A stretch of 60,063 nt of DNA, taken from Candidatus Zixiibacteriota bacterium. Its GTDB lineage: Bacteria > Zixibacteria > MSB-5A5 > GN15 > JAAZOE01. How positions within the stretch are numbered: the first letter of the stretch is position 1; every line of letters begins with the position of its first letter. The stretch covers positions 1-60,063 of the forward strand of contig DAOUTW010000026.1 of the NCBI GenBank assembly GCA_030668485.1, written 5' to 3'. Under the pieces are notes generated by a model that was given only the letters and a program-made list of their open reading frames with translations, was not told the DNA's origin and ran no database searches. Below, in pieces: positions 11,242-49,584 of the stretch. A program made the translations under genes and the position numbers.

Positions 11242-11519
11242 TTTCCTCAATAAATTAGTTTGTCTGAATTTCCTGGTTTCGGCCAACCTTGCGTCAGCCA
11301 AAAACAGGCCCTTGCCCACCTACAAAAACAACATAGAACCTGCGTTGATTCCGATGCCATTCCGTTAAGTGAACCATTATGAGAAAGGCGTAACCATGAA
11401 CCAAATCACCCTCAGAAACAGACCGAAAATACCTCCAATTGAGGAAAAACCGGGAAGACATGCAAAAATGACGAAACAAAGCCAACTTATCGTTGAACGG
11501 CAACAACATACCGTTTTTA

Positions 11520-30035: not shown

Positions 30036-32369
30036 TTGAAACCATCCCGATCCCAAATCAAGGCTGCCGGGAATTTTTTTGGCCCGATTCCCGATAGACC
30101 TCCCGGTTTGTTCACCGTGGCAGTACGTCTGATTATCTGTCTCGTGTTCATAGCCGGATTGAACATCACCGTCGACGCGCAGTCGATTGTCAAAATCAAC
30201 GGTCATGTGTATGATGCCGTCGATGGTCATCCGATCGACCGGGCCGAAATCAAAATCCTGGGCAGCGATTATTTTACCTTCACCGATCAGTTCGGATATT
30301 TCACCCTGGAAAATATCCCTGACGGTCGCTATCGAATTGACATTACGGCGCAGGGATATTTGACCGGACCGGGCGAGGAGGTCGAGGTGGTGGCCGATAT
30401 CACCCGCCGCTTGACAATCCGGCTGGAACGGAAAATTCATAAACTAAACGACAGAGAAGTGCGCGGGCAGACCGTTCCGTTGGAAATCAATAGTCTTGAG
30501 ATCATCGATCGTCGCCGGATTGAACAATCGGGCAACCGCTCGCTGGCCGAGGTCCTGAATCAACTGGAGGGGGTCTATATCCATGAAACCGGTCCCGCCG
30601 GTGGAGAAAAGCAGGTCAGTATCCGCGGAAGCGCCTCCAAACATGTCCTGGTTCTCCTTGACGGTCAGCGTCTCAATCCGGCCGGCAGCGGCGAGGCCGA
30701 CCTCAACAGCGTCCCCCTTGAAATGATCGAAAAAGTGGAAGTGTATCGCGGCGGTCAGTCGTCCCGGTTCGGGGCTGACGCTCTCGGCGGTGTGATCAAT
30801 ATCATTACCCAGGGCAGTCGGGCGAAAAACAAGCCGGAGATGAAAGTTGACAAATACTGGGGGAAATGGAAGACCAATCTGCATCATGTGACCCTGATAA
30901 ATCCGGTTGATATTAAACGCCTGACGACCAAATTCACCTATGGCTACCGTTCGACCAACAGCGACTTCGATTACAATTACACCGTCCTGCCGCGCCATGA
31001 TAACGAAAGAATTTATACCGGCAGGCGAAATAACGCCGATTTTGAAAGCCGCAACTATTTCCTCTCCACTGTTTACCGCCCGGGAGAAAAAACGTCTGTC
31101 AGTTTTTCCGGGCAGGCTTATAATTCCCGTCAGGGACTTCCCGGAAAAGCTTCGCAGCCCAATTCCACCGCCCGTAAAGAGGATGACCGTTTGCTGGGAA
31201 GTCTGCGCCTGGAACATGATCTTAATCCGGATCATCATCTGGAGATGTCACTCGGTTTTACTCGCCTCCGGCAGGAGTTTGATGATAAAACCGGAGCCAC
31301 GCCGTTTGAAAGCCGTCATATCAACGATATCGCCATCTGGCAGACGAGTGTCCGTTCCCGCCTCTGGACCGGCAACGAGCTGAACGGCGGCGTATCCCTC
31401 CAACGCGATATCCTGTATAATGATGAACTCCTCAATCCGGCTCAGAGCATGGGACGGACAGTTCGTGATAATATCGGCCTCCGTATTTCCGACCGTCAAA
31501 CCTGGGACCTTGTAAAACTGCCGTTCTGGGATTTGGCGGCGGTCGATATTTCGGTGCGATGGGATAATACCGATACCAAAAAAGTAATCGATGATGAAGA
31601 TTATGTCAGCCATTCTTCGGACTGGTCGCAAAAAATCGGCGCATCTATATCCCGCGGAGAAAAGACCCGAATAATCATCCGGGGCAACTATGGCACATCG
31701 TACCGGCTGCCGTCGATCAATGCCCTGTTCTGGAAAACCGATATCCGTTCTCAGGGGAATCCCGATCTGAACCCGGAACGATCCGAACATTCCGACGCCG
31801 GGATCGAGTTCGTCACCGAAGGATGGGCCGACATTTCGGCAGGGGTTACTTATTTTCACAGCTTTGTCAAAGATATCATCGTCTGGCGTCCCAGTTCGCC
31901 GTTGGGGATATGGACTCCGGCAAACCTCGATGCCGCCCTGATTACCGGACATGAGGATTTTGTCAGGATCGGTTTGTTCGATAAACGACTGAGGCTTGGT
32001 TACAGCAACACCATTACCGTGCCGCAGAATAATGTCTCGGGACCGGTCGCCGATAACAAGTATCTGACCTTTCGGCCGCATTATGTTACCAGCCTCGAAT
32101 GCGAAATGAAATTCTGGAAATTCAGGGGGGCTTATAATATCAGGCTGGTCGATATCCGTTATGCCCTTGAGGCGAATACCAAATGGTATGGCGTTTATCG
32201 AATCGATGATGCTGCACTCGATTTCAAGACCGATATCTCTCATGTTACGATTCAAGCCGGGTATCGAGTCAAGAACCTGCATGGTAACCATTATGAACTG
32301 ATCGCTCATTACCCGATGCCGGGCCGGGAATGGGGCGTCGATTTGTCGATGAATTATCGGCTGGATTGA
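30036..32369 (+). CDS. btuB: TonB-dependent receptor, probable cobalamin transporter
   Basis: This 777-residue outer-membrane receptor has a signal anchor, a carboxypeptidase-regulatory-like beta sandwich (about 55-135, INGHVYDAVDGHPIDRAEI) and a plug domain with ASKHVLVLLDGQRLNPAG and RGGQSSRFGADALGGVINII. A C-terminal 22-strand barrel follows, ending in a Trp/Asp-containing strand. It should import a cobalt corrinoid with TonB-ExbBD energy. The riboswitch immediately upstream is the main reason for the B12 assignment. Translation begins at TTG 30036 with a very strong GGGAGGGGAAG site. It is followed after 51 bases by a beta-propeller gene that may work with it. Confidence 0.87.
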   Translation: MKPSRSQIKAAGNFFGPIPDRPPGLFTVAVRLIICLVFIAGLNITVDAQSIVKINGHVYDAVDGHPIDRAEIKILGSDYFTFTDQFGYFTLENIPDGRYRIDITAQGYLTGPGEEVEVVADITRRLTIRLERKIHKLNDREVRGQTVPLEINSLEIIDRRRIEQSGNRSLAEVLNQLEGVYIHETGPAGGEKQVSIRGSASKHVLVLLDGQRLNPAGSGEADLNSVPLEMIEKVEVYRGGQSSRFGADALGGVINIITQGSRAKNKPEMKVDKYWGKWKTNLHHVTLINPVDIKRLTTKFTYGYRSTNSDFDYNYTVLPRHDNERIYTGRRNNADFESRNYFLSTVYRPGEKTSVSFSGQAYNSRQGLPGKASQPNSTARKEDDRLLGSLRLEHDLNPDHHLEMSLGFTRLRQEFDDKTGATPFESRHINDIAIWQTSVRSRLWTGNELNGGVSLQRDILYNDELLNPAQSMGRTVRDNIGLRISDRQTWDLVKLPFWDLAAVDISVRWDNTDTKKVIDDEDYVSHSSDWSQKIGASISRGEKTRIIIRGNYGTSYRLPSINALFWKTDIRSQGNPDLNPERSEHSDAGIEFVTEGWADISAGVTYFHSFVKDIIVWRPSSPLGIWTPANLDAALITGHEDFVRIGLFDKRLRLGYSNTITVPQNNVSGPVADNKYLTFRPHYVTSLECEMKFWKFRGAYNIRLVDIRYALEANTKWYGVYRIDDAALDFKTDISHVTIQAGYRVKNLHGNHYELIAHYPMPGREWGVDLSMNYRLD

Positions 32370-32420: not shown

Positions 32421-33641
32421 ATGAAATATAAAGCGATTGTCATTATCTTTCTTTCCCTCTGCGTCGGTGCTGCTGCTATGGCTGTCGACCCGACCGCTTA
32501 TGTCATCAACACTTCGGGGGAGACATTGTCGAAGATAAATGTGACCACCGGCCAGATATCCAACAATATTCTGACGCTGGGGTCTGATGTATACTGTTAT
32601 CCCAATCAGATCATCGTCCGCGATACGCTGGCTTATGTTGTCGTCTCCGGAACCGATGAGGTTCAGGTTATTAATCTCAATACCGAAAGTACCGCCGGAT
32701 GGATCGTGTTCGATACGCCGGGTGTCAATCCCTATTGGTCGGCCTTCCTTGATGAGCAGTACCTCTATGTCACCCTCATGGTCGATAACAGCCTCGCCAA
32801 GGTCGATGTGACCACTCGGCAGGTGATCAAAACCGTCGATGTCGGGAAATCGCCGGAAGGGGTGTTGATGTTTGACGGCAAGGCCTATATCGCTATTACC
32901 GCCTATGATTTTTCCACCTGGTCGTGGGGGCAGGGGAAGGTGGCGGTTTATGATCCTGATATCGATACGGTCGTGTCTGAAATCCTGGTCGGGATGAATC
33001 CGCAATTTCTCGATTTCGACAGCGAAGGACGTATCCATGTCGTGTGTACCGGCAATTACTGGGATATCCCGGGGATTGTCTATATCATCGATCCCGTTAC
33101 CAATACGGTACTTGATAGCATCCCGGTCGGCGGTCAGCCGGGGCAGATATCGATTGCCCCCGACGATATGGCTTATCTTGCCGCCGGGGGGTGGTCCGCT
33201 GACGGCGAGGTGCTGATCTATCATGCCCTGACCGGCGAGATTTATCATGATGGTTCCAATCCGGTCTATGTCGATTCGGGAGCGACCGGAGCGGTGGCTT
33301 TTCAGGATAGTACCGCGTTTATATCCACATTCGGCGACCGGATCAACCGGATCAATTCCGGCGGTGAGAAGTTGAACACCTATCATATGGGCGATGGTCC
33401 GGTTCATATCGATTTCGATTATCGCCCCGGCGATGTCAATGGCGATTGGGAGGCCAATGTTGCCGATGCCGTTTATCTGATCAATTATGTTTTCAAGGCC
33501 GGTCCGACCCCATCCGATCCGGCGTGGCGGTCCGATGCCAATGCCGACGGATTCATCGATGTCGGCGATGCGGTCTATATGATCAATTACGTCTTCCGCG
33601 GCGGTTCCGCCCCCAAACTAGCCCCGACCTGGGTGCGGTAG
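32421..33641 (+). CDS. YncE-like beta-propeller protein with dockerin repeats
   Basis: This 406-residue exported protein begins with a signal peptide (MKYKAIVIIFLSLCVG to AMA). YncE-like propeller blades with TLYVI/VNTATN-type repeats follow (residues 25-330; for example NSLAKVDVTTRQVIKTVDV). The C-terminus has two dockerin-like calcium repeats (NVADAVYLINYVF and DVGDAVYMINYVF). It lies 51 bases behind the riboswitch-controlled receptor. In Bacteroides, a surface beta-propeller (BtuG) captures B12 for BtuB, so a similar partner role is inferred. It lacks a convincing lipobox, unlike BtuG. The last codons fall inside a repeat (see 33629-33679). Confidence 0.8.
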   Translation: MKYKAIVIIFLSLCVGAAAMAVDPTAYVINTSGETLSKINVTTGQISNNILTLGSDVYCYPNQIIVRDTLAYVVVSGTDEVQVINLNTESTAGWIVFDTPGVNPYWSAFLDEQYLYVTLMVDNSLAKVDVTTRQVIKTVDVGKSPEGVLMFDGKAYIAITAYDFSTWSWGQGKVAVYDPDIDTVVSEILVGMNPQFLDFDSEGRIHVVCTGNYWDIPGIVYIIDPVTNTVLDSIPVGGQPGQISIAPDDMAYLAAGGWSADGEVLIYHALTGEIYHDGSNPVYVDSGATGAVAFQDSTAFISTFGDRINRINSGGEKLNTYHMGDGPVHIDFDYRPGDVNGDWEANVADAVYLINYVFKAGPTPSDPAWRSDANADGFIDVGDAVYMINYVFRGGSAPKLAPTWVR

Positions 33642-33679
33642 CAGGCAAAGCCAGGCAGAGGCCTGATTTTGGCTGTCGC
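33629..33679 (+). repeat. Hairpin-GGCTGTCGC repeat, copy 1, over a stop codon
   Basis: The copy begins CTGGGTGCGGT, contains CCAGGCAGAGGCCTG and ends TTTTGGCTGTCGC. It includes the last codons and stop of the beta-propeller gene. Confidence 0.75.
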
Positions 33680-33729
33680 GTGTATGATCCAATGTTGGTA
33701 TATGAAGCAATAAATGGCTCGCCATCCGT

Positions 33730-33782
33730 CTGGGTGCGGTGAAGCAGGCAAGACCAGGCAAAAGCCTGATTTTGGCTGTCGC
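33730..33782 (+). repeat. Hairpin-GGCTGTCGC repeat, copy 2
   Basis: It matches copy 1 over its whole length: CTGGGTGCGGT, AGCAGGCAA, CCAGGCAAAAGCCTG, TTTTGGCTGTCGC. The stem loop differs (AAAA against AGAG). Confidence 0.75.
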
Positions 33783-33784
33783 TT

Positions 33785-33880
33785 CGATGACCATAATCTG
33801 AGCCAAGAAACGCCCTATTTAGACCAAAAAACCCCTTTTAAGTCGAAAAAATGGCTTAAAATGGGTTAGAAATGGGTTTG
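33785..33880 (-). repeat. Dispersed element, copy 2
   Basis: Read on the minus strand it contains TAAGCCATTTTTTCGAC, AAAAGGGGTTTTTTGG and CTCAGATTATGGTCATC. It parallels 11520-11595 with a short insertion before the CAGATTATGG block. Confidence 0.6.
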
Positions 33881-33948
33881 TAAAATTGTTATGTTGTTGC
33901 CGCACAACGATAAAATGGCTTTGTTTGCTCATTTTTAAAGATTTTTTT

Positions 33949-34007
33949 TGCGGCAGGGGCCGCTTTTTGGCTGTCGCGGTGGCAGGGGCCACTTTTTGGC
34001 TGTCGCG
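33949..34007 (+). repeat. Hairpin-GGCTGTCGC repeats, copies 3 and 4 in tandem
   Basis: Two adjacent units read GCGGC-AGGG-GCCGC (33949-33977) and GTGGC-AGGG-GCCAC (33978-34007), each followed by TTTTTGGCTGTCGC. The stem changes at paired positions (C-G to T-A), with the tail unchanged. Confidence 0.8.
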
Positions 34008-34024
34008 AAGATGAACTCAATCGT

Positions 34025-34082
34025 TGCTTGAATTCCAGCGGGTCACACGTCCCGAAGACGGGCCGCAGGACCCGGCAGAACG
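34025..34082 (+). repeat. 58-bp structured direct repeat, copy 1
   Basis: It begins TGCTTGAATTCC and contains CGGGTCACACGTCCCG and GACGGGCCGCAGGACCCGG. About five substitutions separate it from copy 2. Confidence 0.8.
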
Positions 34083-34224
34083 CTAAATATTTGAGGTTTT
34101 TCCATTCTTCGCATTTGGATGGGATTTTCTTTTCGGTTACAGACATCAGTATATCTCCACTAAATGATCAGGTTCAATAATGGAGATAGGGCAGGAATCA
34201 ACGCAGATTTTATGTCGATTTTGT

Positions 34225-34289
34225 CGCCCAGGGCGGTTTGAGGCTGTCGCGGTGGCAGGGGCAGGCAGGGGCCTGTTATTGGCTGTCGC
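34225..34289 (+). repeat. Hairpin-GGCTGTCGC repeats, copies 5 and 6
   Basis: Copy 5 is CGCC-CAG-GGCG with GGCTGTCGC; copy 6 is CAGGC-AGGG-GCCTG with TTATTGGCTGTCGC (34262-34289). A degenerate seventh copy (CAGGC-AAAA-GCCTG) lies near 34520-34548. Confidence 0.65.
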
Positions 34290-34308
34290 GAGGCAAATCA
34301 TGATTCGG

Positions 34309-34357
34309 TCGCGGGGTCATCCGCCTCTGGCGGACCCTTACGGGAAGGACCCCGCGA
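34309..34357 (+). repeat. Nested palindrome
   Basis: TCGCGGGGTC (34309-34318) pairs perfectly with GACCCCGCGA (34348-34357), and within it TCCGCC-TCT-GGCGGA (34320-34334) forms a second stem. Confidence 0.75.
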
Positions 34358-34378
34358 AACAGTAATCAGCGAAGTAGC

Positions 34379-34436
34379 TGCTTGAATGCCGCCGGGTCAC
34401 ACGTCCCGAAGACGGGCCGCAAGACCCGGCGGAACG
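34379..34436 (+). repeat. 58-bp structured direct repeat, copy 2
   Basis: The unit can fold as GCCGGGTC...GACCCGGC around CCCG-AAGA-CGGG. Copy 1 at 34025-34082 has the same inner stem. Confidence 0.8.
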
Positions 34437-34701
34437 GGAATAAATTACTATAGATTGATGGCGCACGGGACATATGCCATCCACGAAACGACAATTGCAT
34501 CGTAGGGGCCGTTCGTGACAGGCAAAAGCCTGGTTATGGCCATACGAAGAATGGACAATACCTGACCTGAATACGATCACCCCCAAACAAGTTTGAGGGT
34601 GGCACCCTTGGAAGCAATAAGAATGAAAGTACTTCTTCGCTTCATCGGTTTTAGCCCAATATGTTTCTGTAAGAAATAGATATTTGACAAATTTTTGCTT
34701 C

Positions 34702-49430: not shown

Positions 49431-49584
49431 GTTGACGCAATTCCCCCTCGTTGGGATCACCCGGGGGGCCGGAGACGGCCCCCCTTCACCGCTTGCAACA
49501 GCAAGTTTTCTGCTGTCGCCAGCTTGACCCAAATATCTACCTCGAAAATCATAGCTATATATATCCCAGTCTCTCTACTACCAG

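Follow-up and report, generated by a model that had tools for sequence, protein, structure and literature searches.

We describe a family of short hairpin repeats in the genome of a Candidatus Zixiibacteriota bacterium, analyzed in a stretch of 60,063 nucleotides (contig DAOUTW010000026.1, positions 1 to 60,063; here called the window). The family is real and extends far past the locus at positions 33629 to 34548 where a preliminary description had noticed it. With a probability of roughly 0.6, it is a REP-like miniature mobile DNA repeat family without the GTAG or CGTC head and the inverted pairing of known REPs; it is REP-like in its visible behavior, yet lies outside the described REP super-families. 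This reading is built on the observed structure, covariation, distribution, orientation, and insertion state of the units, and reaches from there to a putative mobilizing enzyme and possible effects on expression. Few kinds of repeated DNA in bacteria are as common as REP-like repeats, and both their movement and their role at gene ends are unsettled. New here is a family, found in an uncultured lineage, in which the stem sequence is free while pairing and tag are fixed; it offers a clean test of the part that a mobilizing enzyme reads and of the reason why such hairpins come to lie flush with stop codons in mainly one orientation. With its covariance model, hundreds of copies in these genomes can also be masked or marked during annotation.

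Each unit is built of a 5-bp hairpin with a loop of 3 to 4 nt, followed by TTTTT and then by the 9-nt tag GGCTGTCGC, for a length of 27 to 29 nt, or ∼42 nt when a 3′ module is included. This module, GNRGATGAYC behind the tag, closes the terminal unit of an array, and conservation fades ∼17 nt past the tag; units of one related genome (G004, see below) carry GYRCTYCG in its place. The unit alignment shows neither marked conservation nor a GTAG or CGTC head 5′ of the hairpin. Within the window, a covariance model (R1) built on 53 units from four genera finds five clear units, one degraded unit, and one tail-less hairpin between positions 33652 and 34540 (Table 1), in line with the six to seven units counted previously; the clear units have E values of 5e-16 to 6e-9, and each has a 4-nt loop. 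The three stem pairs quoted at that time (GCGGC/GCCGC, GTGGC/GCCAC, and CAGGC/GCCTG) are all present. Each hairpin had also been said to be followed by TTTTTGGCTGTCGC, which holds exactly at positions 33964 and 33993, but the remaining array units carry ATTTT, TTATT, or TTTGA ahead of GGCTGTCGC. Units 1 to 6 follow the upstream gene and point in its own direction, and a remnant hairpin, CAGGCAAAGCC, stands between its stop codon (33639 to 33641), which it directly follows, and unit 1. Unit 3 sits directly 3′ of a T-run and abuts unit 4. Besides the 3′ module behind the last unit, the two units elsewhere in the window are additions to the preliminary description. An Rfam search of the window found a cobalamin riboswitch alone (RF00174, 29821 to 30007, 115.7 bits), upstream of a TonB-dependent receptor-like gene at 30108 to 32369, and no entry at the hairpin-repeat locus.

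Table 1. Hairpin units, their relics, and the upstream gene in the window
Feature	Position	Strand	Description	Evidence
Gene upstream of array	32421–33641	+	406 aa; C-terminal part dockerin-type repeat-like	By eye
Unit 1	33652–33693	+	Stem CAGGC/GCCTG (33652–33665), ATTTT, GGCTGTCGC (33671–33679), 3′ module GTGTATGATC	R1 54.9 bits, E 4.7e-16
Unit 2	33755–33796	+	Stem CAGGC/GCCTG, loop AAAA, ATTTTGGCTGTCGC, module TTCGATGACC	R1 51.5 bits; repeat D1/D3
Unit 3	33950–33978	+	Stem GCGGC/GCCGC, TTTTTGGCTGTCGC	R1 37.5 bits; terminator-like scan
Unit 4	33979–34020	+	Stem GTGGC/GCCAC, TTTTTGGCTGTCGC, module GAAGATGAAC	R1 55.8 bits; terminator-like scan
Degraded unit 5	34224–34251	+	TCGCC CAG GGCGG TTTGA GGCTGTCGC	R1 9.6 bits, E 0.18; exact GGCTGTCGC at 34242
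Unit 6	34262–34293	+	Stem CAGGC/GCCTG, TTATTGGCTGTCGC, module lost	R1 32.8 bits
Relic hairpin	34519–34540	+	CAGGCAAAAGCCTG without GGCTGTCGC tail	R1 11.6 bits, E 0.04; repeat D3
Further unit	11277–11318	-	Stem TGGGC/GCCTG, TTTTTGGCTGACGC	R1 43.4 bits
Further unit	49492–49533	+	Private stem CTTGC/GCAAG, TTTTCTGCTGTCGC	R1 30.1 bits

The pairing of the stem is conserved independently of its sequence. In ∼650 kb of this genome, taken around exact-tail sites and transposase genes, a perfect stem of 5 bp directly adjoins the T-run in 75 of the 91 units with an exact tail. Reshuffling of the arms among these units in 1,000 trials left 21.7 perfect stems on average and never more than 34, and the same test moved 20 nt upstream gave 2. 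In the alignment of 53 units (four genera), each of the five stem pairs varies on both sides, and the covariation score of the two-helix structure tested is 0.389, compared to 0.148 for shuffled and at most 0.096 for slid controls. Because the alignment rows were selected for having a hairpin and many copies inherit the same stem class, the alignment cells are not independent events; the exact-tail test and the stem differences between genera are free of that row selection. Behind a common tag, the stems are GGGAT/ATCCC in G001, CACAC/GTGTG in G003, GGGAC/GTCCC in G002, and GCGGC and GTGGC in G004. Well-kept units of this genome (G000) fall into the classes GTGGC (37), CAGGC (36), CCGGC (25), and GCGGC (8), with private stems being rarer. 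The earlier view that structure and not sequence is kept thus applies to the hairpin; the tail is nearly invariant in sequence. A second hairpin, GGCTGTC/GATGAYC, was rejected as a conserved helix: an internal pair is unformed in 43 of the 53 units (mostly C·A), and its 5′ arm hardly varies. An alternative fold between the left arm and the tag was seen in one GCGGC unit and is possible for GYGGC stems only.

The spread of the family was surveyed in this genome, in one genome from each of four other genera of the same GTDB family (G001 to G004), and in two genomes of a sixth genus (G005 and G006). R1 matches 175 copies in G000, 157 in G003, 94 in G001, 31 in G002, and 22 in G004, the large counts possibly being lower bounds since the model search scored a limited number of candidates. 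The preliminary description had named a lack of significant covariation, or confinement to this locus, as grounds for refutation; the units extend beyond the locus, and covariation is above the shuffled and slid controls used here to approximate the named test. The sixth genus gave no match in G005 and one weak match in G006, and 24 genomes of other families gave three weak single matches. A strict pattern search of the phylum found matches in 3 of 132 genomes, and viral contigs contained no exact match. The 14-mer TTTTTGGCTGTCGC has 98 exact occurrences in the 4.5-Mb genome and its reversed pattern none, which excludes chance. Nearly all of the 77 GGCTGTCGC sites in the first 362 kb read have a hairpin, unlike a DNA uptake sequence, and the few hairpin-less sites there look like chance matches in genes. 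In G001, units sit within a longer dispersed repeat, GGGTTCGTTTTGTCC...GGATTTTTGGCCAAAG (loci L086, L088, L089, L091, and L155).

Where units neighbor one another in the genome stretches read, 110 of 114 pairs lie on the same strand and 4 on opposite strands, so the opposite-orientation neighbors that define BIMEs and REPINs are not the rule here. Abutting units have a pitch of 26 to 39 nt, mostly 26 to 29 nt, and their stems are nearly independent (16 of 45 equal, with 11.9 expected). This near-independence led us to reject tandem duplication as the source of the arrays, which instead seem to grow by the addition of unrelated units in register. CRISPR arrays, already dismissed in the preliminary description for irregular spacing, were likewise rejected: copies are scattered across the genome without spacers, units often abut, and successive tails in the window array are ∼103, 195, 29, 244, and 39 nt apart.

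Comparison of orthologous sites indicates that the units are insertions, since relatives lack the unit at the two loci tested. Past the ftsZ stop codon, units are present in G000 only, and none is found there in G001 to G004. Behind a prohibitin-like gene, a unit is present in G003 only and is still followed by a terminator-like hairpin; in G000, G001, G002, and G004, a hairpin is found there without a unit. Moreover, of two paralogous repeats in G001, one has exactly one 26-nt unit more than the other. Of the three roles guessed originally, a mobile hairpin is the best supported, given lineage-specific insertions between gene and native terminator, copy numbers that vary widely between related genera, and gain or loss of the 26-nt unit as a discrete module; nothing specific speaks for RNA binding sites. 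The stop codon of a CBS-epimerase gene shows another pattern. Units with three unrelated stems follow it in G000, G002, and G003 and are absent from G001, G005, and G006, which reflects either an old unit with a wholly changed stem or repeated insertion at a favored spot. Sharing across three genera could also speak against mobility and for vertical inheritance with a role in the host.

RAYT transposases are plausible candidate movers, as judged from gene content and proximity. The genome has ten matches to the Y1_Tnp profile, and all eight G000 proteins tested, together with two from G003, pass the cutoff of NF047646 (REP-associated tyrosine transposase). A unit lies within 300 nt at 7 of ∼30 RAYT loci in four genera, with none near most of them; by our own estimate, this proximity is several-fold above that expected from unit density, but permissive intergenic DNA may simply accumulate both elements. 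At locus L046, the RAYT gene lies between two direct repeats of ∼100 nt, each containing a unit, and at L046 and L073 units stand on both sides of the gene in direct orientation. RAYT genes were always flanked by two inverted REPs in their founding description (PMC2817692). Clustered copies and RAYT genes with some units nearby recall RAYT-REP units and BIMEs (Nunvar 2010, PMC2817692) as well as REPINs (PMC3116915), but arrays here are direct, inverted unit copies do not regularly frame any RAYT gene, and G004 has 22 units and no Y1 transposase match. The RAYT genes that were read closely are flanked by other hairpins, mostly GGTGCCCC-like (L045, 10236 to 10275; L052, 9290 to 9945; L073, 1490 to 2075; and L071, 1190 to 1880), whose stems, in contrast to those of classical GTAG REPs, differ between the genes.

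Placement relative to genes was assessed in the genome stretches read with a simple dicodon gene caller, and orientation counts were controlled for convergent gene pairs, which inflate bias. The general features of REPs (a short palindrome in many extragenic copies) are evident, with 15 of 259 units inside called genes. Within 20 nt of a gene 3′ end, 26 units are in terminator orientation and 3 are reversed (P = 8e-6); within 40 nt, units pointing away from and towards the gene stand at 35:5, and between tandem gene pairs the ratio is 43:17. Array starts lie within 3 nt of a stop codon in 15 cases, directly behind a T-run in 22, and behind rule-called tRNA 3′ ends in 3, of which the tRNA-Tyr was confirmed by ARAGORN. 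Native terminator-like hairpins start ∼22 to 39 nt past the stop codon, often with T7 tails, whereas units mostly start at 0 to 2 nt and have T5 followed by GG. Since this geometry differs, the stop-proximal units are not simply the usual terminators of the organism. At L111 (3805 to 3910 and 9627 to 9760), units with private hairpins follow the tRNA-Tyr and a second tRNA-like 3′ end. A few copies, behind the tRNA-Tyr and at L136, carry a module of GACGGCC and T7 that would fold into a terminator-like hairpin; in the L111 variant, the tag becomes part of a strong hairpin of this kind, and this is possibly the ancestral form.

In a mechanism in keeping with mobility, each insertion would add a single unit in a fixed orientation just 3′ of a stop codon or of a T-run (in many cases a native terminator), or against an existing unit, the last of these giving rise to head-to-tail arrays. 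An enzyme acting on single-stranded DNA would read the shape of the hairpin but the sequence of the tag, and the likeliest candidates are RAYT-type HUH transposases (some ten in the genome by profile match). After transcription, the hairpin and its U-run would end the upstream mRNA region, where they may act as a weak terminator, shield the 3′ end, or get in the way of terminating ribosomes; such an effect would account for the tolerance of mainly one orientation near gene ends. Sense-orientation copies with U5 directly behind stop codons would be predicted to affect the mRNA 3′ end as weak terminators, blocks to 3′ exonucleases, or ribosome obstacles. Retention bias alone, with reverse insertions being harmful or sense insertions harmless, could give the orientation pattern.

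The orientation bias also fits the proposal that the units are intrinsic terminators or 3′-end stabilizers selected by the host, in which the hairpin and T5 end upstream transcripts, selection for termination keeps the pairing, and the tag belongs to the same signal as its downstream element. As in intrinsic terminators, a GC-rich hairpin is directly followed by a T-run behind genes and in the gene's direction; four units were found by a terminator-like scan, two copies directly behind tRNA or tRNA-like 3′ ends (one the tRNA-Tyr) have private stems CCATT/AATGG, and three genera have three different stems at the one CBS-epimerase stop codon. We nevertheless consider this proposal unlikely. The stem is of 5 bp with T5 only, set at the stop codon rather than in the native position; hairpin terminators remain downstream of the prohibitin-like gene; T5 is not better kept near stop codons (0.60) than elsewhere (0.75); and copies are limited to one family in uneven numbers. 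A conserved 9-nt tag past the U-run is not known from any intrinsic terminator. The early suggestion of a transcription-stop array draws partial support from orientation, but native terminators with another geometry are still present downstream, so that termination is no more than a possible reason for the units to exist.

A further proposal is that the units are canonical RAYT-moved REPs of the GTAG type whose tag is a variant head. Published REPs are palindromes of 20 to 40 bp with an unpaired GTAG or CGTC head, lie mostly near ORF 3′ ends, and often form inverted pairs (PMC3733652); GTAG REP termini often provide a TAG stop codon (PMC3733652), and stalling of ribosomes has been reported for E. 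coli REPs that lie no more than 15 nt from a stop codon (discussed in PMC12306157). The present units resemble them (Di Nocera 2013, PMC3733652) as short, high-copy, intergenic palindromes placed mostly close behind ORF 3′ ends, with stem complementarity kept while the sequence changes; size, copy number, intergenic placement, and stop-codon nearness all agree with published REPs (PMC3733652 and PMC12306157), RAYT genes are present, and GTRG-like letters occur behind the tag. These letters, however, lie 3′ of the hairpin and behind the last unit only, the 5′ side carries no conserved motif, T5 and the invariant tag GGCTGTCGC stand 3′ instead, several stem sequences per genome share one tag, and the units are arranged head to tail with no inverted pair around a RAYT gene. 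Head position and dimer orientation therefore led us to reject this class, which appears quite improbable. Stop-proximal E. coli REPs (PMC12306157) also have their hairpin at most 15 nt from the stop codon, but the present units often start 0 to 2 nt past it and continue with T5, and no homology is known. Alternatively, the tag and module might insert alone behind pre-existing host terminator hairpins, hence the differing hairpins. Private stems at several sites and units behind the tRNA-Tyr hairpin agree with such insertion, but the unit-free orthologous sites (ftsZ and prohibitin-like) also lack a stop-proximal hairpin, and four stem classes cover most G000 units, which indicates that the hairpins are copied too; we regard this as very improbable. 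Insertion might also be aimed at transcript 3′ ends as such (a stop codon, a terminator T-run, a tRNA 3′ end, or the end of a previous unit) by a non-RAYT machinery that would read the hairpin shape and the GGCTGTCGC tag, a variant to which we give little credence. Against these stands the preferred reading of a REP-like mobile family. Small dispersed repeats (SDRs) of cyanobacteria, with units of 21 to 27 nt, are taken as mobile, and some form hairpins; they share size, presumed mobility, and hairpins with the present family, with no sequence relation known.

Other repeats occur near the units. A second, unrelated structured repeat, GGGTCACACGTCCCGAAGACGGGCCGCAGGACCC, lies at positions 34025 to 34082 and 34379 to 34436 of the window, with outer stems that differ and are still paired. 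Six copies were seen in the G000 stretches read, two of them in the ∼100-nt direct repeats around the L046 RAYT gene (7893 and 8618). A composite of the unit with the second local repeat (GGGTCACACGTCCCGAAG...) was rejected, as a unit follows only 2 of its 6 copies. A larger dispersed repeat with GGCTTTGTTTGCTCATTTTT is often found beside units (window, 33906 to 33950; L045, 9875 to 9900; L046, 7610 to 7640; and L052, 8990 to 9070), and its reverse strand reads like MSKQSQ.... Finally, a long hairpin, GCGGGGTCATCCGCC...GGACCCCGC, at positions 34310 to 34355 of the window is possibly a further repeat.
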